Shown here: positions 3,206 to 12,672 of the stretch, one piece after another
Layout of the letters: each line of letters starts with the position of its first letter
Position numbering within the stretch: the first letter of the stretch is position 1
Assembly: GCF_019083995.1 (NCBI RefSeq)
Contig: NZ_JAHRCU010000002.1
Coordinates: forward strand, 310,001 to 374,000
Reading direction: 5' to 3'
Origin: Roseococcus sp. SDR
GTDB taxonomy: Bacteria > Pseudomonadota > Alphaproteobacteria > Acetobacterales > Acetobacteraceae
DNA: 64,000 nucleotides
Notes under the pieces: model-generated
Told to the model about the DNA's origin: nothing
The model's database searches: none
What the model saw: only the letters and a program-made list of their open reading frames with translations
Program-made: the position numbers and the translations under genes

Positions 3206-4054
3206 ATGGCCCGTGCGACGCCCCATCCCGCCCAACCGATCAAGGACGCCATCGCCGCCCGGGTGGTGGCGCTGTTCAATGATCGCGCGCGGGGGGAGGC
3301 GCCGGTGCCGCGCCGGCCCGATGGTCTGTTCGGCCCGCGCTCGGTCGCATGGCGTGTGCACGGCGACGTCACCTCGATGATGGTGGGCGGGATCTCCTCC
3401 CTGCTGCTGCAGATGCTGCATCCGGCGGTGCTGGCCGGCGTCTGGGACCATTCCAGCTTCCGCACCGATCTCCATGGCCGGCTACGCCGCACCGCGCGCT
3501 TCATCGCACTGACCACCTATGGCGGGCAGGAGGAGGCGCTCTCCGCGATCAGGCGCGTGCGGGCCATCCATGAACGGGTGGGCGGCACGCTGCCCGATGG
3601 CACGCCCTACCGCGCGAATGACCCCATGCTGCTGGCCTGGGTGCATGTGACGGAGGCGACGAGCTTCCTCGCGGCCTGGCGGCGCTATGGCGAGCCAGGC
3701 ATGGGCCGTGCGGACCGGGACCGCTACTTCGCCGAGATGGCGGAAATCGGCGAACGTCTTGGCGCCGATCCGGTTCCGCGCGACGCCGCCGCGGCGGCAC
3801 GGCTGATCACCGAGGGTCGTGGCGCCCTGCGCAGTGACGCCCGCACGCGGGAGGTGCGTCGCTTCCTGCTGCAGCCGGCCAGCCGCGCGCCGCTGACCGC
3901 GCCCCTGCAGGCCTTGGGCAACCAGGCGGCAATCGACCTGTTGCCCGACTGGGCCAGGCACATGCATGGGCTGGCCAATCCAGCGCTCGGCCGCCCGCTC
4001 CTGCGCGCCGGCACGCGCGGCCTGGCCGAGACCCTGCGCTGGGCCTTTCGCTAG
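3206..4054 (+). CDS. Oxygenase MpaB family protein (DUF2236)
   Basis: The 282-residue product matches the DUF2236/MpaB family. It has the early GPRSVAWRVHGD segment, the LLQMLHPAV-AGVWDHSSF block with the conserved His, TYGGQEEA, and the late LPDWARHMHG segment. MpaB-type proteins are haem- or metal-dependent oxygenase-like enzymes, one of which does oxidative cleavage in mycophenolic acid synthesis; bacterial members mostly lack assigned substrates. Length fits the family. ATG at 3206 gives the family N-terminus. A hairpin (4063-4088) follows the gene. Confidence 0.82.
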   Translation: MARATPHPAQPIKDAIAARVVALFNDRARGEAPVPRRPDGLFGPRSVAWRVHGDVTSMMVGGISSLLLQMLHPAVLAGVWDHSSFRTDLHGRLRRTARFIALTTYGGQEEALSAIRRVRAIHERVGGTLPDGTPYRANDPMLLAWVHVTEATSFLAAWRRYGEPGMGRADRDRYFAEMAEIGERLGADPVPRDAAAAARLITEGRGALRSDARTREVRRFLLQPASRAPLTAPLQALGNQAAIDLLPDWARHMHGLANPALGRPLLRAGTRGLAETLRWAFR

Positions 4055-4062
4055 AGTCTGAT

Positions 4063-4088
4063 CGCCTTTGGTGGCATCGCCAAAGGCG
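4063..4088 (+). terminator. Hairpin downstream of the MpaB-type gene
   Basis: A 9-bp perfect stem CGCCTTTGG / CCAAAGGCG (4063-4071 and 4080-4088) with an 8-nt loop starts 8 bp after the stop codon. There is no U-tract, so termination is only likely. The rest of 4089-4284 holds no convincing gene. Confidence 0.5.
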
Positions 4089-4284
4089 TGAACCAGCCTC
4101 TCAGCGAGGTCTGAAGCGTGATCAAATCCTGGCGGAGAGGATGGGTCAGCGCTTCGCCCTTCCCGCCCTGACGCAACATGCTGCGGGCTCCGCCCGGCTC
4201 ATCCGCAGGTGGGTGGGGCGCGCTTTTCCGGTCAGCGTCTCGCGCGGGCCAGTCGGCCTCACATCGCCACATGAGGAGAAGGTC

Positions 4285-4336
4285 GGATGGTGGGCGCGAC
4301 AGGGATTGAACCTGTGGCCCCTGCCGTGTGAAGGCA
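4285..4336. repeat. attL: left 52-bp direct repeat
   Basis: This is identical over 52 bp to 9727-9778. Identity stops at 4284 (C versus T) and at 4337 (A versus G). The repeat spans from the CCA end through the anticodon loop of tRNA-Val, so strand exchange probably occurs in the anticodon-loop region. Confidence 0.92.
4288..4336 (-). pseudogene. tRNA-Val(CAC) 3' fragment left by integration
   Basis: These 49 bases correspond to the anticodon arm, variable loop, T arm and CCA end of the intact tRNA-Val at 9730-9804. The 5' acceptor strand and D arm are missing, so this cannot be a functional tRNA. It marks the original downstream junction of the tRNA gene before insertion. Confidence 0.88.
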
Positions 4337-4461
4337 AGGCCCCTGCTTTGCGCGGCTTCGATACGACTATTCGTCTTCGGAAATTATGATCCGAATCAAT
4401 CGCCTTTGCCATGACGCGATTATCTGTCTATCGCTTTCTGTTGCGTCGGCATGCCGATAGC

Positions 4462-4495
4462 TGTTACCCCGCTGTTACCCCGGCGGTGTTACCCC
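4462..4495 (+). repeat. Three arm-type direct repeats TGTTACCCC (left end)
   Basis: Three exact copies of TGTTACCCC lie at 4462-4470, 4473-4481 and 4487-4495, between attL and the integrase start. Two more are found near the right end (9663-9671 and 9674-9682) in the same orientation. Short repeats flanking the crossover site are typical arm sites bound by the integrase N-terminal domain. The repeats are directly visible; integrase binding is inference. Confidence 0.7.
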
Positions 4496-4523
4496 GCACG
4501 GGGGAGCATCTGCGGGGGCGATC

Positions 4524-5840
4524 ATGGCGGCAGCGGTGGGGAAGATTGGACTGCGGGAGGTGCGGGCGCTGGCGCCTCACTCGGAATTGTTCGACGGGCC
4601 GGGCGGACTGCCGGGGTTTGGTGTCCGGCGGCGCTCGGGGCCGGGCGTGAGCTACTTCGTCATGTTCAGAACGGCCGAAGCCCGGCAGCGGCGTTTCACC
4701 ATCGGAACCCACGGCGCCCCCTGGACGCCTGAGACGGCCCGGGCGAAGGCGCGGACGATCTTGGCCGAGGCTGCCGGCGGTGCTGACCCTGCCGCCGCCA
4801 AGCGCGAGGCGCGCGAGGCCCCGACCATCAAGGAACTGTGCGAGTCCTACATGCGTGCCGCAAAGGCAGGGCGGCTGCCCACGCGGCGAGGCGGCACCAA
4901 GAAGGCCAGCACGCTTGCGACAGACCAGAGCCGGATTGATGCCCACATCCTGCCCCTGCTGGGTCACAGGAAGGCGCGGAGCGTCACCACGTCCGATCTT
5001 GAATCGTTCATGTATGCGGTGGCGGACGGCAAGACGCATCGGCGCGAAAAGTTGGAGAAGGCGCACGCCTTCCGGAATGTGCGCGGCGGCATGGGCACAG
5101 CGAGCCGCACCATCGGCCTGTTGGGCGCCGTTTTCGCCTATGGCGTGAAGGTGGGCATCTGCCCCGACAATCCCGCCCGTGGCGTGCTGCGCCCGGCCGA
5201 TGGCAAGCGGAAGCGGCGCCTTTCAGATGATGAGTATCGCCGGCTGCATGATGGGCTGGTGGCTGCTTCGGAGGCGGGCATGTGGCCGCATGCCGTCGCT
5301 GCCGCGCGCTTCCTGGCCCTGACCGGCTGGCGCAGCGGCGAGGCAATCAACCTACGCTGGCGCGACCTCCACCTTGAGTGGCGCACTGCGCTCCTCCCTG
5401 ACACCAAGACGGGGTTCAGCATGCGCCCGCTCTCGCGGCGGGCATGTGAGGTGCTTGCTGCCCAGAAGGCTGCCACAGGCGGCGAGCCGGAGGCGCTGGT
5501 GTTCCCGCCGTCGCGCGGTGAAACGACGATGACCGGCTTCAAGAAATTCATGGCACGCATTGTCAAGCTTGGAGGGCTACCGCCCGACGTGACGGCGCAT
5601 GTGCTGCGTCACAGCTTCGCCAGTGTGGCGGGGAGCGACCTCAAGATGGGCGAACTGACAGTGGGCGCCATGATCGGTCACCAGACCCGAGGCGGCGGCG
5701 TGACGCCGGACTACATCCATCACGCGGACGATGTGCTGCTGGCGGCTGCGGATAAGGTCGCGGACGAAACCGCGCGCCGAATGGACCCGGCCGCGAATTC
5801 GGGGGCCGAGATCATCCAGCTTCACGCGGCGGGCGCCTGA
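4524..5840 (+). CDS. Tyrosine-type site-specific recombinase/integrase
   Basis: The 438-residue protein has a DUF4102-like N-terminal arm-binding region (SYFVMFRTAEARQRRFTIG, about residues 40-60), a SAM-like core-binding domain (about 95-215) and a catalytic domain. Catalytic residues are all present: Arg270 in TGWRSGEA, Lys295 in DTKTG, His359 and Arg362 in HVLRHSF, His386 in GHQT, and nucleophile Tyr397 in TPDYIHH. It should integrate and, with an accessory factor, excise the element at tRNA-Val. ATG at 4524 follows a GGGGGCG stretch. It lies next to attL with three arm-type repeats in its leader, so its expression may be affected by its own binding. Confidence 0.93.
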   Translation: MAAAVGKIGLREVRALAPHSELFDGPGGLPGFGVRRRSGPGVSYFVMFRTAEARQRRFTIGTHGAPWTPETARAKARTILAEAAGGADPAAAKREAREAPTIKELCESYMRAAKAGRLPTRRGGTKKASTLATDQSRIDAHILPLLGHRKARSVTTSDLESFMYAVADGKTHRREKLEKAHAFRNVRGGMGTASRTIGLLGAVFAYGVKVGICPDNPARGVLRPADGKRKRRLSDDEYRRLHDGLVAASEAGMWPHAVAAARFLALTGWRSGEAINLRWRDLHLEWRTALLPDTKTGFSMRPLSRRACEVLAAQKAATGGEPEALVFPPSRGETTMTGFKKFMARIVKLGGLPPDVTAHVLRHSFASVAGSDLKMGELTVGAMIGHQTRGGGVTPDYIHHADDVLLAAADKVADETARRMDPAANSGAEIIQLHAAGA

Positions 5841-6012
5841 GGGCGCATCGCAAGAATACGTGGGCAATATCGCAATGGATTGCGATTCTTTGTTCGGACT
5901 AATCGGGCAAAATCGCAATCGAACGGTGCAAGGCAAAGTAATCAGAAAAAATCGGTAGATTGGCCGCGCAAATATCGCCACACCGGAGGGGCAATAGCGC
6001 GGAGATCGCACC
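5841..6012 (+). promoter_or_regulatory. AT-richer control region with ATCGCAAT repeats and palindrome
   Basis: This gap is conspicuously less GC-rich than its surroundings. It contains a perfect palindrome ATCGCAAT-GG-ATTGCGAT (5869-5886), another direct ATCGCAAT at 5912-5919 and a 7-base version ATCGCAA at 5847-5853. It sits immediately before the HTH gene and after the integrase. It is probably an operator and/or excisionase-binding region. An iteron-like origin is possible but less likely with so few copies. Confidence 0.55.
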
Positions 6013-6255
6013 ATGACCTTGCACCCCGACACCCTGTTGATCCGGAAGGCGGCGGCGGAGGCCCTGACTGCCGCCGGCTTCCTGATCAAGCCCGCGACGC
6101 TGGCGACGAAGGCCACGCGCGGGGGTGGCCCGCCGTTCCGCACCTTCAATGGGCGGGCGCTTTATCGCTGGTCCGATCTGCTGGAATGGGCCGAGCGGAC
6201 CGCATCGGCGCGCTGCGCCAGCACGGCCGAGCGCGACGCGCGCCGGGCCGCGTAA
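6013..6255 (+). CDS. AlpA/excisionase-like helix-turn-helix protein
   Basis: This 80-residue protein resembles the small winged-helix DNA-binding proteins found beside integrases in alphaproteobacterial elements. It has an N-terminal helix (LLIRKAAAEALTAAGFLI), then PATLATKATRGGGPPF, an R-FNGRALYRW wing and the DLLEWAE helix. In such elements it acts as excisionase (recombination directionality factor) and/or transcriptional switch. An operator-like palindrome lies upstream, consistent with autoregulation. Its stop overlaps the next start (TAATG), implying translational coupling. Family is fairly clear; the exact role is inferred from context. Confidence 0.75.
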   Translation: MTLHPDTLLIRKAAAEALTAAGFLIKPATLATKATRGGGPPFRTFNGRALYRWSDLLEWAERTASARCASTAERDARRAA

Positions 6256-6470
6256 TGGCGATCCTGTCCGGTTACGGCGTCGCGGCCGAGATCGGTGAGG
6301 CGGACACGCGCGAGGCGATCCGCCGCGCGCGTGAGACTGGCGAGCCGGCGCATATCGTCGCCCTGCTGCTGGAAGCGCGGACGAAGGGCGCCGATTACGA
6401 AGATGGCGTGCATCGCGCCCTCGCCATCGCGGCGATGGGCCTGCCGGCCGAGAGTGATGCTCCGGCCTGA
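6255..6470 (+). CDS. Small element protein of unknown function
   Basis: A 71-residue product whose ATG overlaps the stop of the HTH gene (TAATG at 6253-6257), so translation is coupled. It is Ala/Glu-rich and predicted helical (EADTREAIRRARETGEPAHIVALLLEARTKG), with no signal peptide or recognisable domain. Codon bias fits a real gene. A strong hairpin (6492-6520) follows 21 bp downstream, ending this short transcription unit or separating it from the HUH gene. No function is assignable. Confidence 0.6.
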   Translation: MAILSGYGVAAEIGEADTREAIRRARETGEPAHIVALLLEARTKGADYEDGVHRALAIAAMGLPAESDAPA

Positions 6471-6491
6471 CTTCAAGCGTGCCAGTGGGGG

Positions 6492-6520
6492 CCGGCTCGG
6501 GGGAGGGAACCCCGAGCCGG
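6492..6520 (+). terminator. Strong hairpin between the small gene and the HUH gene
   Basis: Perfect 11-bp stem CCGGCTCGGGG / CCCCGAGCCGG (6492-6502 and 6510-6520) with a 7-nt loop and no T-tract. It may be a terminator or attenuator. Because it precedes an HUH endonuclease gene, a nicking origin is an alternative. A further palindrome GTCTAGAC lies at 6573-6580. Confidence 0.5.
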
Positions 6521-6596
6521 TGAAGTCACATGCCCATTTCCGGAGAAGGTTGCAGTCTATCGCGCCCGATTCGTCTAGACAAGCAGTATCGCGGGG

Positions 6597-7407
6597 ATGC
6601 CCCGTGATGGCGGCCCGCCTGCGGGTGACTACCCTGGCGGAGCAAACTTCGGTGAAGGAACCGGCGCGCGGTCCGTCAGTTACCGCGAAGTTTCGACGCG
6701 CAGCGCATCGCGCGGAAAGCCCCGGAAATCTGCGGGAAATGGCGCCCTCCGGGATGCTTCTGCGAGTGTCGCCTATAAGGTGGGTCATCTCATCGCCGCT
6801 GGTGAGCGTGTCATCGCGGAAGCGATGGCACGCGGTGAGGGCGTCGTTCGGCTGGGCATCTCGCCGCGCGCTGCGGGCGGGAGCATCGGGCGTGACCATC
6901 CGGGGGACTGGTCCGGGCGGCGGATTGAGGCTGAGGCGCGGGCGGTTGGTGCGCTTCGGCGTCGGCTTCTTCGAGCGGTGGCGGACTGGCAGCGGCGGCG
7001 CGGGCGTAGCCTGCGCGGGTGGTGCTGCGCTGAATATGAGCCGCGCCGGGGCGTGCATCTGCATCTGGCGCTGGTCGTGCCGCGCTCGGAGGGCTGGGAC
7101 CTCTGGCGCTTCGTCCGAGCCTTTCTCGCCAAGGAGTATCGGGGCGATGCGGCGGCGAAGCTGCCGGGCGGCTTGCTCTGGATGGCTGATAGACCGGAGC
7201 CGGGGCGCTGGCGCGAGATCGTGTCAACGAACGTGGTGCAGTTGCGCGGATGGCTCGCCTACTGCGCGAAAACATCAGTCCCGGCCGGCCGCGTCGCGGC
7301 TGGCGTCGAAGGGCGAGGCCGTCACCTGGTGGTGGATGGCGACGGGCGACGCCGGCCGCTTTCCGTTGGTCGGCTGCGGATTTTCTCAGGCAATGGAGGC
7401 GATATAG
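6597..7407 (+). CDS. HUH endonuclease (Rep/relaxase-like), 3' end in doubt
   Basis: The open frame from ATG 6597 encodes an Arg-rich protein with the metal-binding HUH motif at residues 154-156 (GVHLHLALVVP) preceded by CCAEYEPR. A YxxK motif follows at Tyr222 (RGWLAYCAKTS), the usual order of HUH motif 2 and catalytic-tyrosine motif 3 in rolling-circle Rep proteins and relaxases. Such enzymes nick one DNA strand and stay covalently attached to it. The frame has no stop at the expected place: it stays open to 8402 through two other genes. The +1 frame, with better third-position GC, stops at 7405-7407, directly abutting the next ATG. A frameshift near 7265-7300 (mutation, base error or programmed) is suspected. 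The catalytic core lies before it. Confidence 0.6.
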
Positions 7408-7758
7408 ATGGCGACTCAGGCTCAGAAATTGGCGGACTATCGGGAGGCATCGCGGCTGTTCAAGGAGGCGCAGCGCCTCCTGCACGCAACCGGCGCGGCG
7501 GCCGGGATGCTGCCGGGCAAGCGCCCGGGGGCGCCGGAGGCGCAGCCCGAGGACGTGAAGAAGGGGGGCGGCGATCATCCGTTGGTCGAGATCGCCAAGG
7601 CGCGAGCGGCGGCGGCGAAGCATCGCCTCCGGCCGGTGATTACCGAAGTGTCGCTGGTGGATCAGCCGGCCTCGCCCGGGTGCCACGTCGTGCTGATGAA
7701 GGGCGCGGGGCATCCGCTGGTGAAGCTGGCGATGGCGCGGCGGGAGGCTGCCCGATGA
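7408..7758 (+). CDS. Small protein with phage XkdF/prohead-protease-like EVSLVDQPA motif
   Basis: A 116-residue product with strong coding-type third-position GC. It has an N-terminal helix (KLADYREASRLFKEAQRLL), a repeated HPLVEIAKARAAAAK / HPLVKLAMARREAA element near the middle and end, and between them ITEVSLVDQPASPGCHVVLMK. The EVSLVD-PA-P string is characteristic of the C-terminal part of phage XkdF-type and prohead serine proteases, but no catalytic domain is present. It could be a capsid-related remnant or a protein that mimics or interferes with a phage protease. It starts right after a TAG in the preceding frame and overlaps the next gene by ATGA. Confidence 0.6.
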   Translation: MATQAQKLADYREASRLFKEAQRLLHATGAAAGMLPGKRPGAPEAQPEDVKKGGGDHPLVEIAKARAAAAKHRLRPVITEVSLVDQPASPGCHVVLMKGAGHPLVKLAMARREAAR

Positions 7759-8402
7759 TGCGCGAAGCGATGGAGTTGGAGGCGGCCCCCCTGCCTGAAC
7801 TGCCGGTCGAGTGCTCGGGGTTCATGAAGCTCATGGTCGAGCATAACCAGGCGCAGCGGATCGAATCTGAGTGCTCATCCGCCCTGCCTGCGCTGCGCGT
7901 GGAGGCGGCCCGGGCCACCGAAGCGGCTGAGGCTGGCGAGGGTGACGCGCTGCTGGCCCGCATCCCGCAGGAGCAGGCGGACAAGCTTGCCCGTGATGCT
8001 CAGGCGGCCCGTGAGGCGGTGCGCCAGGCCGAGCGACGCGGCGAAGCCGCGCGGCGCGAGCGCGTGCGCCTTGAGGCCGCGATCATCGCGGCGCGGGAGG
8101 CTGCCGGCGAAGCCCTCCGGCGATGGGGAAGCGCGGCGGCTTCGCCGCACGCGGAAGGCTACGCGGCGGCGCTGGCGGCGCTCTATGGGCACCTTGGGGC
8201 GCTGCGTGCGATCCAGGCGGCGACGAACGCCAGCGTGCTTGCCGACACGCGACACTTCCGCCTGCCGCGTCGTCCAACCGCGAGCGATGAACCGTTCGCG
8301 GAGGTGGTGTTGATCGCGGTCCCGGGCGTTGACCAGGCTGTTGAGATGCGGATTGCGCTGGAAGCGGCCGAGCGAATGGCCTGGCGACCCAATGCCGCCT
8401 GA
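7755..8402 (+). CDS. Coiled-coil element protein, unknown function
   Basis: 215 residues. It is almost entirely charged and helical: the segment RIPQEQADKLARDAQAAREAVRQAERRG and following Arg/Glu/Ala-rich heptads (about residues 75-120) should form a coiled coil. A short C-terminal beta-containing segment ends with EPFAEVVLIAVPGVDQ. The start ATG at 7755 overlaps the preceding stop (ATGA), and a second ATG follows immediately. The last 11 bases overlap the DUF5681 gene, so the block 7408-9109 looks like one tightly coupled operon. No recognised family. Confidence 0.6.
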   Translation: MMREAMELEAAPLPELPVECSGFMKLMVEHNQAQRIESECSSALPALRVEAARATEAAEAGEGDALLARIPQEQADKLARDAQAAREAVRQAERRGEAARRERVRLEAAIIAAREAAGEALRRWGSAAASPHAEGYAAALAALYGHLGALRAIQAATNASVLADTRHFRLPRRPTASDEPFAEVVLIAVPGVDQAVEMRIALEAAERMAWRPNAA

Positions 8403-8871
8403 GGGGGCGGAGCCTGAGAATGCAGGCGGCCCGCGTCGCCAGCGCGGGCGCTTCGCTCCCGGCGTGAGTGGGTGTCCGGGCGGCAGCAAGCGCGGGAGCC
8501 GCCCGGCGGCGCTGTTGAAGTTGGACAAGCTGGCGGAGCGCGACGCGGGCGAGGTGCTGCGCCAGGTGCTTGATCGGGCGCTTGCTGGCGATGCGCGCGC
8601 GGCTGAACTGGTCCTAGCGCGGACGTGGCCAGCCCCCCGCACACGGCGCGTCACCGTTCCCCTGCCCGATCTGCGAGCACCTGGCGCCCATGGCGAGGCG
8701 CTGGCGCGGCTGGCGGAGGAAGTGGCCCGTGGTCACCTGGCGCCCGACGAAGCGGGCGCGATTGCCGGCCTTGTGGAGCGCCATGCCGGCGCGGTGCAGT
8801 TGGCAGACTTGGCCGAGCGGATCGCGGCGCTTGAGGCGGAGCGGCAGGGGGTGGGCAGTGCGGCGCTCTGA
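8392..8871 (+). CDS. DUF5681 domain-containing protein
   Basis: A 159-residue protein with the DUF5681 hallmark basic N-terminus RGRFAPGVSGCPGGSKRGS (normally GRF-PGQSGNP-GRPKGS), followed by helices (LDRALAGDARAAELVLARTWP), the PPR-like Pro/Arg linker, and a C-terminal helical segment (LAPDEAGAIAGLVERHAGAVQLADLAERIAALEA). The family is common in prophages and integrated elements of alphaproteobacteria, frequently near terminase or portal genes. Its N-terminal motif resembles that seen in small-terminase-like proteins. Molecular function is not established. The gene overlaps its neighbours on both sides. Confidence 0.78.
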   Translation: MPPEGAEPENAGGPRRQRGRFAPGVSGCPGGSKRGSRPAALLKLDKLAERDAGEVLRQVLDRALAGDARAAELVLARTWPAPRTRRVTVPLPDLRAPGAHGEALARLAEEVARGHLAPDEAGAIAGLVERHAGAVQLADLAERIAALEAERQGVGSAAL

Positions 8872-9109
8872 GCTGGCGGGGCGCGTCGCGCGCTTGGAAC
8901 GTGCTGCCGGTCGAGGGCAGGCCGGGGCCGTGCGATGGCTGCACATGGAGGGCTACCGGCTCTCGGATGCCGAGATCGCCGCGCGGGTCGCGGCCTGGCG
9001 GGCTGCAACGGGATGGACGGGCCGGGTCGCGGTCACGGTCGCTCCGGAGCAGGCGGCGGACCTCAACGACTGGCGGCTGCGCTACGGGCCGGCTGCCGGC
9101 GAGGGCTGA
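8858..9109 (+). CDS. Small element protein, GTG start, unknown function
   Basis: The 83-residue product would start at GTG 8858 inside the DUF5681 C-terminus (14-bp overlap, preceded by GGCAGGGGG). It begins MRRSELAGRVARLERAAG, has LHMEGYRLSDAEIAARVAAWRAATG in the middle, and ends NDWRLRYGPAAGEG. It is predicted helical; no family recognised. Overlap and same strand place it last in the HUH-DUF5681 operon. An alternative upstream start would create a much longer overlap and is less likely. Confidence 0.55.
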   Translation: MRRSELAGRVARLERAAGRGQAGAVRWLHMEGYRLSDAEIAARVAAWRAATGWTGRVAVTVAPEQAADLNDWRLRYGPAAGEG

Positions 9110-9112
9110 CCC

Positions 9113-9616
9113 TCAGGCCGGCGGCGGGGATTCCCCAAGCAGATGAGCGGCCGTTAGGCCGATGAAGTGGATGAGGACCGCGCTGCCCGTCTCGGCATCC
9201 TTGCTCCCCTTGCCCGTATCGGTCCTGACCTGGCGCGAGACGTGAAGCAGCTTCGCCAGCGCTGTCTTGACCGCATCCTCTGGCGGCCCGTCCGGCAGGT
9301 TCAGAACCCGCCTCAGGTGCGCGTCTATGGCGCCGGGAGCGTTCCAGGCCGGCAGATGCCCCACGTCCGGGTCCAGACCAAGCAGAGCGCGCGTGAGCGC
9401 GTCCATAGCCCCTTCGATCATCGCCCACGCCTGGTCCTTCGAGACGGTGCCGGCCTCCAAGGCGTCAAGCGCCGCATCGTCCGCGTCTATGAGGGCAAGG
9501 AGCCGTGCCCGAAGGGCCGAAAGGTTGCCGACGTGCGGTTGGTGCGGGTCGCCAGGGTGGATGGCCCGGACGGCGCGTAGGCTCTTGGGGAGGGGCTTCT
9601 TCCGAGGCGTGGGCAT
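9113..9616 (-). CDS. Opposite-strand cargo gene of the element, unknown function
   Basis: A 167-residue soluble protein, the only gene in the element on the minus strand. It has a basic N-terminus (MPTPRKKPLPKSLRAVRAI), a helical middle (LSALRARLLALIDADDAALDALEAG, then WAMIEGAMDALTRALLGLDPD) and a C-terminal segment LIHFIGLTAAHLLGESPPPA. No family recognised and no membrane segments. It converges with the operon 3 bp away and lies close to attR, a position where satellites and islands often carry accessory or regulatory cargo. A candidate for anything from a phage-interference factor to a regulator; nothing in the sequence decides. Confidence 0.6.
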   Translation of the reverse strand: MPTPRKKPLPKSLRAVRAIHPGDPHQPHVGNLSALRARLLALIDADDAALDALEAGTVSKDQAWAMIEGAMDALTRALLGLDPDVGHLPAWNAPGAIDAHLRRVLNLPDGPPEDAVKTALAKLLHVSRQVRTDTGKGSKDAETGSAVLIHFIGLTAAHLLGESPPPA

Positions 9617-9662
9617 GTCGCCAGGGTAGCACGGTGGCGGGGTCCGCGCTTGCCGTGACGGC

Positions 9663-9682
9663 TGTTACCCCGGTGTTACCCC
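9663..9682 (+). repeat. Two arm-type direct repeats TGTTACCCC (right end)
   Basis: Exact copies of TGTTACCCC at 9663-9671 and 9674-9682 match the three copies near the left end in sequence and orientation. They are the probable integrase arm sites of the right attachment region, about 45 bp from the repeated core. Confidence 0.7.
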
Positions 9683-9726
9683 GGCTTGTGCCGAGCGATC
9701 TGAGGTAGGGGCTAAGTAATTGATTT

Positions 9727-9778
9727 GGATGGTGGGCGCGACAGGGATTGAACCTGTGGCCCCTGCCGTGTGAAGGCA
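9727..9778. repeat. attR: right 52-bp direct repeat
   Basis: Identical to 4285-4336. This copy is continuous with the 5' half of tRNA-Val, so the element restores a complete tRNA gene on insertion. Confidence 0.92.
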
Positions 9779-9804
9779 GTGCTCTACCGCTGAGCTACGC
9801 GCCC
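9730..9804 (-). tRNA. tRNA-Val (anticodon CAC)
   Basis: The minus strand gives a full cloverleaf: acceptor GGGCGCG pairs with CGCGCCC, the D arm contains AGCTCAGCGGTAGAGC, the anticodon stem-loop is CTGCC-TTCACAC-GGCAG with anticodon CAC, the T arm contains GGTTCAATCC, and CCA is encoded. It reads GUG codons. The 3' 49 bases belong to the element's att repeat. A TTGACA-like -35 (9842-9847, minus strand) lies upstream with a weak -10. Confidence 0.95.
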
Positions 9805-9887
9805 ATCCGATGGCGCTCCCTTTGCGGCGGGACGCCGTTCCTGTCAAGCCGGTTGCGCCGCAAGGCGCACGGCCTACATGTTAACAC

Positions 9888-10655
9888 ATGCTTGCGCGCA
9901 TCGCCCTTGCCCTGCTGCTTCTCGCGGCCCCGGCCTCCGCCGAGCGATGGCGCGCGACCTACACCATCACCGCGGCGGGAATCACTGTGGCCGATGCGGA
10001 GGTGCGCTTCACCCTCGGGCCCGCCGGCACGCCCTACAGCATCGAGACACGCTCCCGCACGCGGGGCGTCGCCGCCTGGCTCATCCGATCCGAGACCCAG
10101 GCGCGCAGCGATGGGCTGCTCCACCCTGGCGCCACCCAGCCCCGCCGCTACCAGACGGAGGGCAGTTGGCGCGGCGCGGCACGCCGCACGGTCCTGGACT
10201 ACGCACCGGATGGCACGGCGCGCGTCGCAACGCTCGAACCCGCGCAGGACATGGAGCGCACCCCTGTGCCCGATGACGCGCGGCGCGGCCATATCGACCC
10301 GCTCTCGGCCATCGTCCTGCTGACGGCCCATGTGCGGGAGACGGCGCGGTGCGACGTCCGCGCCCGCACTTTCGACGGCCGGCGCGTGACCGAGTTCGAG
10401 GTCAGGACACATCCCGTCGTGCTGGCCTCGGATCGCGGCCTGCTGCGCTGTGACGTCGAGAGCCGTCCCATCGCCGGCATCCCGCTCGACCGCCCCATCG
10501 AGGAGACGAGCCGGCCGACGCGCAGCACGCTGGTCTTCGGCGTGACGCAGCCGGGCGCGCCCGCGATCCCCGTTCAGGTCGAGATCGCCAGCCGCTGGTG
10601 GGGCACCATCCAGGCAAGCCTGGTGGAACTATCCGAGGAGCGCGGGCAGCGCTGA
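9888..10655 (+). CDS. DUF3108 domain-containing exported protein
   Basis: The 255-residue protein starts with a signal peptide (LARIALALLLLAAPASA, cleavage after residue 18). It continues with the DUF3108 pattern: YTITAAGITVADAEVRF, then TRSRTRGVAAWLI, SWRGAARRTVLDYAPDG, IDPLSAIVLL, FDGRRVTEFEV, a single Cys in LRCDVESRPIAG, and a final domain ending WWGTIQASLVEL. DUF3108 proteins are periplasmic beta-rich proteins of unknown function. ATG at 9888 begins the signal peptide. Its 3' end overlaps the convergent gph by 27 bp. Confidence 0.82.
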   Translation: MLARIALALLLLAAPASAERWRATYTITAAGITVADAEVRFTLGPAGTPYSIETRSRTRGVAAWLIRSETQARSDGLLHPGATQPRRYQTEGSWRGAARRTVLDYAPDGTARVATLEPAQDMERTPVPDDARRGHIDPLSAIVLLTAHVRETARCDVRARTFDGRRVTEFEVRTHPVVLASDRGLLRCDVESRPIAGIPLDRPIEETSRPTRSTLVFGVTQPGAPAIPVQVEIASRWWGTIQASLVELSEERGQR

Positions 10656-11255
10656 CGGCGTGGCAGCGATGAGATCCGCGCCCGCGCCATCGCCATAGCC
10701 CCAGGCGGCGAAGACACTGCGCACGCCGGCGCCACGCGCGGCCCGGATATCATTCTGATGGTCGCCGATCATCACCGCGTCTGCGGCGGCGACGCCCAGA
10801 CCCTCCAGCACGCCACGGACATGGCCAGGATCGGGTTTCTTCATGGGCAGGCTGTCGCCGCCCAGGACGAGCGCGAAATGCGGCGCAAGGCCGAGTTCGG
10901 CCAGCAGGGCGCGCGTGGCCGCAATGGGCTTGTTGGTGCAGACGGCAAGCCGCCAGCCGCGCGCGGCCAAGGCCTCCAGCGCCGCCACCATGCCCGGATA
11001 GGGGCGCGTCAGAACCGCGGAATTGGCCTCGAGATCCTCCAGGAAGCCGGGAAGCAGCGCCTCGTCGAAGCTCCGGCCCCGGGCGTTGAAGGCCTTGACC
11101 AGTAGCGCGCGGGCGCCGTCACCGATCATCGCCGCCACATCGGGCAGGGCGAAGGGAGCCTCGGCCTGCGCCGCCATCAGGCGGTTCAGCGCGGCGCGGA
11201 GGTCAGGCGCGCTGTCCACCAGCGTTCCGTCGAGATCAAAGATGGCGAGCGGCAT
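10629..11255 (-). CDS. gph: Phosphoglycolate phosphatase (HAD family)
   Basis: A 208-residue HAD-superfamily phosphatase. Motif I is FDLDGTLVDS with nucleophile Asp7 and Asp9, motif II is VCTNKP, the motif III Lys is in KKPDPGHV, and motif IV is MIGDHQNDI. The alpha-helical cap between motifs I and II fits Gph. It dephosphorylates 2-phosphoglycolate, a by-product of DNA repair and RuBisCO oxygenation. Substrate specificity is by family similarity; some relatives act on other phosphates. The C-terminus overlaps the DUF3108 gene on the other strand by 27 bp. Confidence 0.85.
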   Translation of the reverse strand: MPLAIFDLDGTLVDSAPDLRAALNRLMAAQAEAPFALPDVAAMIGDGARALLVKAFNARGRSFDEALLPGFLEDLEANSAVLTRPYPGMVAALEALAARGWRLAVCTNKPIAATRALLAELGLAPHFALVLGGDSLPMKKPDPGHVRGVLEGLGVAAADAVMIGDHQNDIRAARGAGVRSVFAAWGYGDGAGADLIAATPSALPALLG

Positions 11256-11373
11256 GGAAGCGTGGTAGCCGCCAGGCCGGCGCCGGGCAAGAAAGCCCCG
11301 GGCGTTACGCGCTGCAAGAAAGCGTCATCCGCCGCCGGGGTTGCGGCGCAGGGGCCGGGGCGGCTACGCCTGG

Positions 11374-12672
11374 ATGATGCGCGCAGCCATCATCCTCGCG
11401 GCGGGCCAGGGCACCCGCATGAAGTCCGCCATGCCCAAGGTGATGCATCGCATCGCCGGCAGGCCGATGATCAACCACCTGATCGCCGCCTGCGAGACGG
11501 TGTTCGAGCGGATCATCGTGGTGGCAGGGCCGGGCATGCCGGAGCTGCAGAAGGCCGTGCTGCCGCATGCGAGCGTGGTCCAGGCCGAACGGCTGGGCAC
11601 CGGCCACGCCGCCCGCATGGCGGCACCCCTGCTGGAGGGGTTCACCGGCGATGTCGCGGTGCTCTATGGCGACAACCCGCTGATCTCGCCCGCCACGCTG
11701 CAGCGCCTCGTGGCGGCGCGGACGGAGGCGGACCTCACGCTGCTCGCCATGCGCCCCACGGACCCTGCCAGATATGGCCGCGTGGTGCAGGACGCGGCGG
11801 GCGAAGTCGAGCGCATCGTCGAATGGGCGGATGCGAACGAAGCAGAGCGCGGCATCGGCCTGTGCAATGCGGGCGTGGTCTGCGCCGCCTGGCCCGATCT
11901 CGCGCGCTGGCTCGCGGGCCTCAAGAATGACAACCGGCAGGGCGAATTCTACCTGACCGACGTGGTGGGCGCCGCCCGCACCGAGGGCCGCCGCAACCGC
12001 GCCGTGGAGGCGCCGGAGGCCGAGCTGCGCGGCATCAACAGCCGCACCGAGCTCGCCGCCGCCGAGGCGGAGGTGCAGGCCAAGCTGCGCGAGGCCGCCA
12101 TGCTGGGCGGTGCGACGCTGACCCTGCCCGAGACCGTCTGCCTCGCCTGGGACACGCAGCTGGGGCGGGACGTGGTGGTGGAGCCGCATGTCGTCTTCGC
12201 GCCCGGCGTCACGGTCGAAGAGGGGGTGACGATCCGCGCCTTTTCGCATCTCGAGCAATGCGTGGTGCGCAGCGGGGCGATCATCGGGCCCTATGCGCGG
12301 CTGCGCCCTGGCACCGAGGTGGGCGAAGGGGCACATGTCGGCAATTTCGTGGAGCTGAAGGCGGCGAGCCTCGGCAAGGGTGCCAAGGCCAATCACCTGA
12401 CCTATCTGGGGGATGTGACGGTGGGCGCCGGCTCCAACATCGGCGCCGGCACCATCACCTGCAACTATGATGGCGTGAACAAGCACCGCACCGTGATCGG
12501 CGCCGGCGCCTTCATCGGCAGCGACACGGCGCTGGTGGCGCCCGTCCGCGTGGGCGACCGCGCGCTTGTGGCGGCCGGCAGCGTCGTGACGGAGGACGTG
12601 CCGGATGACGCGCTGGCCGTGGCGCGCGGGCGGCAGGTGAACAAGCCGGGCCGTGGCTTCAAGGGCAAATAG
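11374..12672 (+). CDS. glmU: Bifunctional UDP-GlcNAc pyrophosphorylase / GlcN-1-P acetyltransferase
   Basis: About 432 residues. The N-terminal nucleotidyltransferase begins AAIILAAGQGTRMKSAMPKVMH (signature L-A-G-GT-M-S--PK) and has the YGDNPLI metal site and NAGV. The C-terminal half is a left-handed beta helix of hexapeptide repeats with the acetyltransferase segment GPYARLRPGTEVGEGAHVGNFVELK and NHLTYLGD, then CNYDG. GlmU acetylates glucosamine-1-phosphate and makes UDP-GlcNAc for peptidoglycan and LPS. Start is one of two adjacent ATGs (11374 or 11377). It is 25 bp upstream of glmS, a logical two-gene operon. Confidence 0.95.
   Translation: MMRAAIILAAGQGTRMKSAMPKVMHRIAGRPMINHLIAACETVFERIIVVAGPGMPELQKAVLPHASVVQAERLGTGHAARMAAPLLEGFTGDVAVLYGDNPLISPATLQRLVAARTEADLTLLAMRPTDPARYGRVVQDAAGEVERIVEWADANEAERGIGLCNAGVVCAAWPDLARWLAGLKNDNRQGEFYLTDVVGAARTEGRRNRAVEAPEAELRGINSRTELAAAEAEVQAKLREAAMLGGATLTLPETVCLAWDTQLGRDVVVEPHVVFAPGVTVEEGVTIRAFSHLEQCVVRSGAIIGPYARLRPGTEVGEGAHVGNFVELKAASLGKGAKANHLTYLGDVTVGAGSNIGAGTITCNYDGVNKHRTVIGAGAFIGSDTALVAPVRVGDRALVAAGSVVTEDVPDDALAVARGRQVNKPGRGFKGK

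Follow-up and report, generated by a model that had tools for sequence, protein, structure and literature searches.

Phage satellites, in a broad definition, are elements with mechanisms or signals that favour their packaging in phage particles (PMC11389934). Two described groups come closest in plan to the locus reported here, as far as the portions of the literature drawn on in this work describe them. The phage-inducible chromosomal minimalist islands (PICMI) of Vibrionaceae measure about 6 kb, are bounded by direct repeats, and hold int, alpA and one replication gene, with no capsid genes (PMC10803314). The phage-inducible chromosomal islands (PICI) occupy a specific attachment site, carry the integrase at one end in the order int, alpA (in Gram-negative hosts), replication and terS-like genes, and have no structural or lytic genes (PMC6092414). 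In both groups the cycle is set going by AlpA and produces concatemers (PMC10803314, PMC6092414), and the authors of the PICMI study call the concatemers consistent with plasmid-like rolling-circle replication (PMC10803314). We analysed a 64,000-nucleotide stretch of DNA from Roseococcus sp. SDR (Acetobacteraceae; contig NZ_JAHRCU010000002.1, positions 310,001 to 374,000; the window), in which a tRNA-Val(CAC) gene is occupied by an element of 5,442 bp with a tyrosine integrase, an AlpA-like protein, a candidate replication protein of the HUH type and a protein of the DUF5681 family. We propose, with a probability of roughly 0.58, that this is a complete, very small integrative element which most likely lives as a phage satellite.

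The locus shares the plan of both groups and belongs to neither. PICMI have a primase and a fis site and live in different hosts, whereas the element has an HUH protein and a tRNA-Val site; the part of the PICMI report used here states that no terS homologue was found, whereas the element carries DUF5681 (PMC10803314). PICI are typically about 15 kb, a figure given for those of Gram-positive bacteria, against 5,442 bp here, and they have Pri-Rep and a recognised TerS where the element has the HUH and DUF5681 proteins (PMC6092414). The candidate counterpart of the PICI AlpA-type regulator matches HTH_17 at an E-value (E) of 0.037, below the cut-off, and is similar to the HTH-type (helix-turn-helix) genes of related elements. 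The element is thus not a PICI, by replication gene and size, nor a PICMI, by primase and site; it differs from them in its HUH gene, its size and its packaging candidate, DUF5681. The best reading of its genes is a minimal satellite with probable rolling-circle replication, near PICI and PICMI in plan. The initial annotation of this DNA, made from the letters alone, had suggested an undescribed class of plasmid-like or phage-satellite element. The plasmid-like or satellite character finds support in the large-terminase neighbours of DUF5681 (13 of 20 loci) and in a related 7.1-kb plasmid, both described below; 'undescribed class' is too strong, because an integrase, AlpA, a replication gene and a TerS-like gene are the PICI and PICMI plan. 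We hold with moderate confidence that the element is a variant of phage satellites not seen before. A search of the literature on satellites in Acetobacteraceae, Roseomonas and Alphaproteobacteria, made mostly among papers free of subscription, showed no such elements described. The Charybdis elements are likewise small (about 4.6 kb) virus-like mobile elements, but they are marine, with a putative archaeal host and no hallmark genes in the part of their description used here (PMC12324425).

The boundaries of the element are exact, and those given in the initial annotation held: perfect 52-bp direct repeats, with an intact tRNA at one end and a tRNA fragment at the other. The spacing of the repeats gives the 5,442 bp, and in 30 first-order Markov sequences of the 7-kb region the longest exact repeats reached only 12-18 nt. 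ARAGORN finds a single tRNA in the 64-kb window, the intact tRNA-Val(CAC) on the minus strand; the right repeat lies within its 3' part, so that the integrase adjoins the tRNA fragment (4288-4336) and the functional tRNA owes its 3' part to the element. Empty tRNA-Val sites, which the annotation expected in related genomes, were sought in a set of one genome per species, and one was found in the sister genome G015 (locus L053), where the left flank gene, a single intact tRNA-Val and the right flank stand in succession. The flanking protein of G015 is 89% identical to that of the window, and the left repeat region is identical to L053 over 54 bp, beyond which the right flank continues the match at 87%. 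In L053 about 180 bp separate the end of the left flank gene from the site; the window's approximately 230 bp between this gene and the left repeat gave no alignment with L053. The tRNA-Val(CAC) adjoins the flank gene in all 15 same-genus loci (L007-L021), and our own profile models found no integrase or DUF5681 gene in L053, L054 and L055. The site of integration is the 3' part of the tRNA-Val(CAC) gene, and the tRNA is restored by the element's own copy of the site. The 64-kb window has five copies of TGTTACCCC, which share one strand and all lie just inside the element ends (4462, 4473, 4487, 9663 and 9674); because the integrase has an Arm-DNA-bind_3 domain, we read them as probable arm-type sites of this enzyme. 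The sequence GTTACCCC was not found in any of the 12 related elements examined, an absence that fits integrase-specific sites and is not independent support for them.

The protein that points to packaging is DUF5681, whose naming in the initial annotation is borne out by a score over the PF18932 gathering cut-off (32.3 vs 27.5 bits). PF18932 matches occur in 41 of 241 genomes of the class (Alphaproteobacteria), 36 of them over the cut-off. We chose 20 matches, mostly high-scoring and one of them element-type (L127), and considered 6-10 kb around each: in 13 of these loci, from other Alphaproteobacteria, a large-terminase (TerL) gene stands directly downstream of DUF5681 on the same strand. The ten TerL proteins scanned with Pfam, which were picked by a visible gene of 467-515 aa, all exceed the Terminase_6C cut-off; the other three were called by our own model built from those ten. 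The alignment between profiles of TerL-adjacent and element-type DUF5681 covers 56 columns and has a probability of 97.8% (E 7.6e-13). In two relatives (L048, 2014-2724, and L051, 1987-2706), the C-terminal part of DUF5681 is fused to Terminase_2 (PF03592; E 2.3e-32 and 2.5e-33); the proteins match residues 70-151 and 77-152 of the window protein (43%; E 1.4e-12 and 3.4e-10), and an integrase lies beside both. By its position next to TerL and by the fusion to Terminase_2, DUF5681 is probably a small-terminase-like packaging protein, and it is the candidate for the small terminase (TerS) of the element. The family also appears among the proteins of a Salmonella phage structural proteome, in the part of that report used here (PMC8954984). 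As separate observations made by eye, L048 and L051 may be still smaller elements, and the 13 DUF5681-TerL loci (L108-L111, L113-L115, L119-L122, L125, L126), some in genomes of 0.9-1.2 Mb, mostly have a preceding gene that looks like a ParB-like DNA methylase.

Close relatives of the window's DUF5681 protein occur in 9 of 147 genomes, its own included. Among the 10 loci outside the window in this set, the integrase was found in the first stretches of eight and, via L066 and L132, in the other two, and TerL in none. At least 17 DUF5681 loci from named genomes, three of them in common with the 10 and several of them short contigs, gave an integrase in 8 and TerL in 0. These counts come from integrase and TerL models built from loci of this analysis, the TerL model covering the Terminase_6C type only, and genes of relatives were called by a codon-score script instead of a standard gene finder. 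Six elements have a tRNA and a repeat of 46 bp or longer at their boundaries: the window's (tRNA-Val, 52 bp, 5.4 kb), L049 (tRNA-Lys, 46 bp, 7.0 kb), L052 (tRNA-Lys, 51 bp, 8.3 kb, with a weak DUF5681 match), L065 (tRNA-Arg, 60 bp at 98%, 9.5 kb), L066 (tRNA-Thr, 47 bp at 91%, 7.3 kb) and L132 (G110:C16; tRNA-Met, 59 bp at 98%, 16.4 kb). Two further tRNA-bounded elements, both at tRNA-Ser, are suggested by repeats that are shorter and weaker: L046 (G015:C1:2762500-2781500; integrase and DUF5681, 17-nt repeat, E 3e-4), in the same genome that has the empty tRNA-Val site, and L073 (15-nt repeat, E 0.003).

The gene content of these elements bears on whether the locus could be a decayed remnant of a larger prophage, a possibility that the initial annotation had named. 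The phage flavour of DUF5681 and of a VSLVD motif in a neighbouring protein would fit such an origin. A Pfam scan at E 0.001 of 47 proteins from the window's element, L049, L052, L065 and L066 (a set without seven small called open reading frames (ORFs) of L052, L065 and L066, and with some DUF5681 genes shortened by the gene caller) found no TerL, portal, capsid, tail, lysis, relaxase, coupling or secretion family. It returned five integrases, three DUF5681 (PF18932), two HTH_17, two each of AAA_25, DUF7146 and Toprim_3, and single matches that include a HicA toxin and PF23343; a PHROG scan of the five-element proteins gave 25 of 48 families among the matches listed. Elements of similar plan without recognised structural genes thus stand at other tRNA genes, and the window's element itself has exact 52-bp ends, probable arm sites at both and overlapping open genes, all of which makes a prophage remnant the least probable of the readings considered. 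Unlike a prophage, the element shows no phage structural, lysis or large-terminase family (Pfam, PHROG and, for TerL, our own model), and the same Pfam and PHROG scans gave no conjugation or primase family; the view that its gene set fits no standard integrative and conjugative element, prophage or plasmid stands. The actinomycete integrative and conjugative elements, such as pSAM2, combine an integrase at a tRNA gene with a rolling-circle initiator, and by definition have an FtsK/TraB-like translocase. The element resembles them in the first two features, the initiator being putative, but neither it nor the 47-protein set holds an FtsK/TraB-like translocase family (Pfam).

In the place that the HUH gene takes in the window and in L132, L043 and L046 have D5_N-type proteins, L043 also DUF7146/Toprim, and L044 has AAA_25. 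L132 holds an integrase, an HTH gene, the HUH gene, Mza defence genes and DUF5681; MzaB, MzaC, MzaD and MzaE (PADLOC; 5033-12315 and 3352-4404) and a cytosine methylase lie between HUH and DUF5681. We suggest tentatively, at somewhat less than even odds, that a new alphaproteobacterial family of minimal satellites could be represented here, which would combine HUH replication, DUF5681 as an unrecognised class of small terminase, varied tRNA sites, an existence also as free plasmids, and defence cargo.

The HUH assignment of the initial annotation is retained. The protein matches PF23343 (REP_ORF2-G2P) at E 1.8e-4, with 22.2 bits against a gathering cut-off of 27.8, and three relatives match the same family, all likewise below the cut-off (L057, E 3.1e-4; L132, E 0.006; L141, E 0.017); the proteins of the window, L057, L132 and L133, aligned at 26-30% identity, all keep both His of the HxH motif and one Tyr. 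The reading frame of the HUH protein stays open as far as 8402 and runs across two other ORFs. By codon scores the VSLVD frame is preferred beyond about 7500, and beyond about 7740 the one that encodes the 215-aa protein; the end of the HUH protein therefore probably lies near 7400-7500. Before its gene, the region 6470-6620 folds better than shuffled sequences (z -2.7; 3 of 200 shuffles as good), and the hairpin there (Table 1) is a candidate nick site or origin, or a terminator. An HxH motif is also found in several relaxase families (PMC11389934), and with the small size and the tRNA-gene site this would fit an integrative mobilisable element whose HUH protein is a relaxase and which rides on the conjugation system of another element. 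We consider this improbable: the protein and its three relatives match a replication family, if below the cut-off, the 47 proteins hold no relaxase, coupling or secretion family, and the related plasmid L057 is typed non-mobilizable. The REP_ORF2-G2P family could suggest a satellite of a single-stranded (filamentous) phage that packages the rolling-circle product, and pDolos is a known plasmid satellite of single-stranded DNA phages (PMC11389934); DUF5681 points instead to a tailed-phage terminase and the genome of Roseococcus sp. SDR has no Zot gene, so that we rate this reading as lower still, at only a small chance.

Few genomes hold a match to the HUH protein: in Acetobacteraceae 4 out of 299, and in the class as a whole 4 out of 385, the own genome being in each count and G666, known from its match alone, in the second; both counts are lower bounds, with at most 8-16 candidates scored per genome. 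The match in G343 of the 299-genome set looks spurious, an ordinary gene, and that in G044, the sole match outside the own genome in one search, was dropped as doubtful since it sits among ordinary genes. The window protein gave no match in plasmids (E 0.01) or phages (E 0.1), and none in genome contigs or IMG/VR by peptide patterns. Among the relatives, that of L133 (4358-6276) adjoins an S49 peptidase gene (E 1.7e-22), a family that presumably includes phage head-maturation proteases, and that of L136 (G653:C1:664908-665387) has two stops in the matched frame, with an integrase and genes of a type I restriction system close by (L140).

A free plasmid shares part of this gene set. Plasmid unnamed4 of Pararoseomonas sp. 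SCSIO 73927 (NZ_CP146235.1; L057), a 7,115-bp circle, has relatives of the AlpA-like protein (39%, E 5e-11, at 3726-3956) and of DUF5681 (41%, E 3e-30), together with an HUH candidate (27%, E 0.005) and a VSLVDDPAN protein (49% over 35 aa, E 3e-4) that are probably related to those of the window; these E-values refer to a set of 12 proteins, without composition correction. The 215-aa protein of the element matches two L057 proteins (E 3e-6 and 0.001), which may reflect composition only. Unlike the element, the plasmid has a serine recombinase and no tyrosine integrase was found in it, so part of the gene module is not tied to integration. The plasmid speaks for reading the element as an integrative plasmid, which would combine its integrase with rolling-circle replication by the HUH protein and pass between cells through generalised transduction, vesicles or DNA uptake; DUF5681 would then serve DNA maintenance rather than packaging. 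Elements with an integrase and an HUH gene in which no DUF5681 was found (L140, L141 and L142) fit that view and weigh against the satellite reading; L140 lies beside type I restriction genes, and L141 and L142 are related, occupy separate tRNA-Ser genes in a single genome with 14-15-nt repeats, and have a PC4-like small protein just below the cut-off. The terminase neighbours and Terminase_2 fusions of DUF5681 argue against the plasmid reading, as do the defence genes of L132, since defence systems are often carried by satellites (PMC11389934). On balance an integrative plasmid appears unlikely, though it is the rival with the greatest claim to attention.

For the element as a phage satellite we propose the following cycle, drawn from the gene families and from the analogy with PICMI and PICI. 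An incoming phage would switch on the AlpA-like protein, leading to excision by the integrase. Nicking of the circle by the HUH protein, for which the hairpin ahead of its gene may be the site, would then drive rolling-circle replication and yield concatemers. The small-terminase-like DUF5681 protein may mark element DNA for the large terminase of a tailed helper phage, so that it would be packed into helper particles. The weakest step, a guess, gives the VSLVD protein and the one next to it a possible part in disturbing the assembly of helper heads. The helper in this model would be an infecting phage.

Several further observations weigh against this model. Its basis is gene content, and both helper and mobilisation are putative. 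The genome of Roseococcus sp. SDR gave no match to Terminase_6C, TerL_ATPase, the PF04860 portal or Zot; the genome thus shows no sign of a resident helper with these four marker families, and the helper would have to arrive as an infecting phage, as it does for PICMI. No TerL of the Terminase_6C type lies near DUF5681 in 6 of the 20 loci (the element-type L127 is not among these six), so DUF5681 may have another role. Neither the DUF5681 nor the HUH protein of the window has a match in 50,697 phage records, and in IMG/VR one peptide pattern picked out two weak DUF5681 loci, in one of which our own model finds the gene. With regard to L057, phmmer at E 10 recovers the AlpA and DUF5681 relatives only, the HUH and VSLVD relatives coming from weak BLAST matches, a sub-threshold Pfam match and motifs.

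If the satellite reading is true, DUF5681, a Pfam family whose function is so far unassigned, would gain a job as a small terminase, and satellites would be present in a bacterial family for which our literature search showed none. Their replication gene would be unlike the primase types of PICI and PICMI, and small plasmids and satellites would be linked through common genes. The element would also shift downward the size at which a satellite may still have a packaging protein of its own. PICMI115, at 6.1 kb, is called the smallest satellite with characterised activity by its authors, in the part of their report used here (PMC10803314), and the 5.4-kb element would be smaller.

Table 1. Features of the element and its tRNA target, in window coordinates.
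Feature	Position	Strand	Basis and remarks
Left-end attachment repeat with tRNA-Val 3' fragment	4285..4336	.	Perfect 52-bp repeat; same DNA in the intact tRNA site of G015/L053
Three TGTTACCCC direct repeats, left; probable integrase arm-type sites	4462..4495	+	Copies confined to element ends; putative function
Tyrosine integrase, 438 aa	4524..5840	+	PF00589 E 1.2e-13; PF13356 E 1.3e-9; phrog_1 E 1.7e-48
Palindrome ATATCGCAATGGATTGCGAT between int and alpA; possible operator	5867..5886	.	Near-identical palindrome in L132; putative function
AlpA-like HTH protein, 80 aa	6013..6255	+	HTH_17 E 0.037, below Pfam cut-off
Small ORF, 71 aa	6255..6470	+	No credible family; ATG and alpA stop have one base in common
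Hairpin, 11-bp perfect stem, 7-nt loop	6492..6521	+	Before HUH gene; no longer perfect stem found elsewhere in the element
HUH protein, one conserved Tyr; probable rolling-circle initiator	6597..7451, end uncertain	+	Frame open to 8402; PF23343 below cut-off
Protein with VSLVDQPAS motif, 116 aa	7408..7758	+	49% over 35 aa with L057 753-1247
Ala/Glu/Arg-rich protein, 215 aa	7755..8402	+	Coiled-coil-like by eye; no Pfam family; 4-nt overlap with the VSLVD gene
DUF5681 protein, 159 aa; probable small-terminase-like packaging protein	8392..8871	+	PF18932 E 1.5e-7
Protein, 83 aa	8858..9109	+	Overlaps DUF5681 gene by 14 nt; no credible family
Protein, 167 aa; possible accessory gene	9113..9616	-	No Pfam, PHROG, NCBIfam or PADLOC match
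Two TGTTACCCC direct repeats, right; probable integrase arm-type sites	9663..9682	+	Copies confined to element ends; putative function
Right-end attachment repeat at intact tRNA	9727..9778	.	Perfect 52-bp repeat
Intact tRNA-Val(CAC)	9730..9804	-	ARAGORN

The integrase, which the initial annotation called catalytically complete, carries both the PF00589 and PF13356 domains; its completeness was judged by eye, from Arg, His-x-x-Arg, His and Tyr motifs that we take to be those of the active site. The AlpA-like switch proposed alongside it agrees with the weak HTH_17 match and with relatives in L045 (41%, E 1e-7) and L057. Between int and the HTH gene, a palindrome, ATATCGCAAYGGAYTGCGAT, is common to the window and L132; for ATATCGCAATGGATTGCGAT, 0.02 matches would be expected in the window with up to two mismatches allowed. 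IMG/VR contigs with the int-alpA palindrome (L143-L145) were discarded as chance matches, the element genes being absent from them except for one 18-aa stretch (E 0.04).

The plus-strand genes from the VSLVD gene onward overlap by 4, 11 and 14 nt and are arranged as in an operon. Among the loci scanned, the VSLVD motif occurs in the window and L057 only; the window protein matches L057 753-1247 at E 2.9e-4 in a small-set BLAST, phmmer gave no match between them, and no phage match was found at E 5. We take VSLVDQPAS to resemble the start of some phage prohead-protease-like proteins. Matches to this protein occur in 3 of 147 genomes, the own genome included and one, G131, known from its match alone; a match in G007 was rejected because it is antisense to an ordinary gene in our own gene calls. 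The 215-aa protein has a weak PADLOC match to LmuB (E 4e-4), and a match to the 83-aa protein lies downstream of DUF5681 in L059 (E 0.0024).

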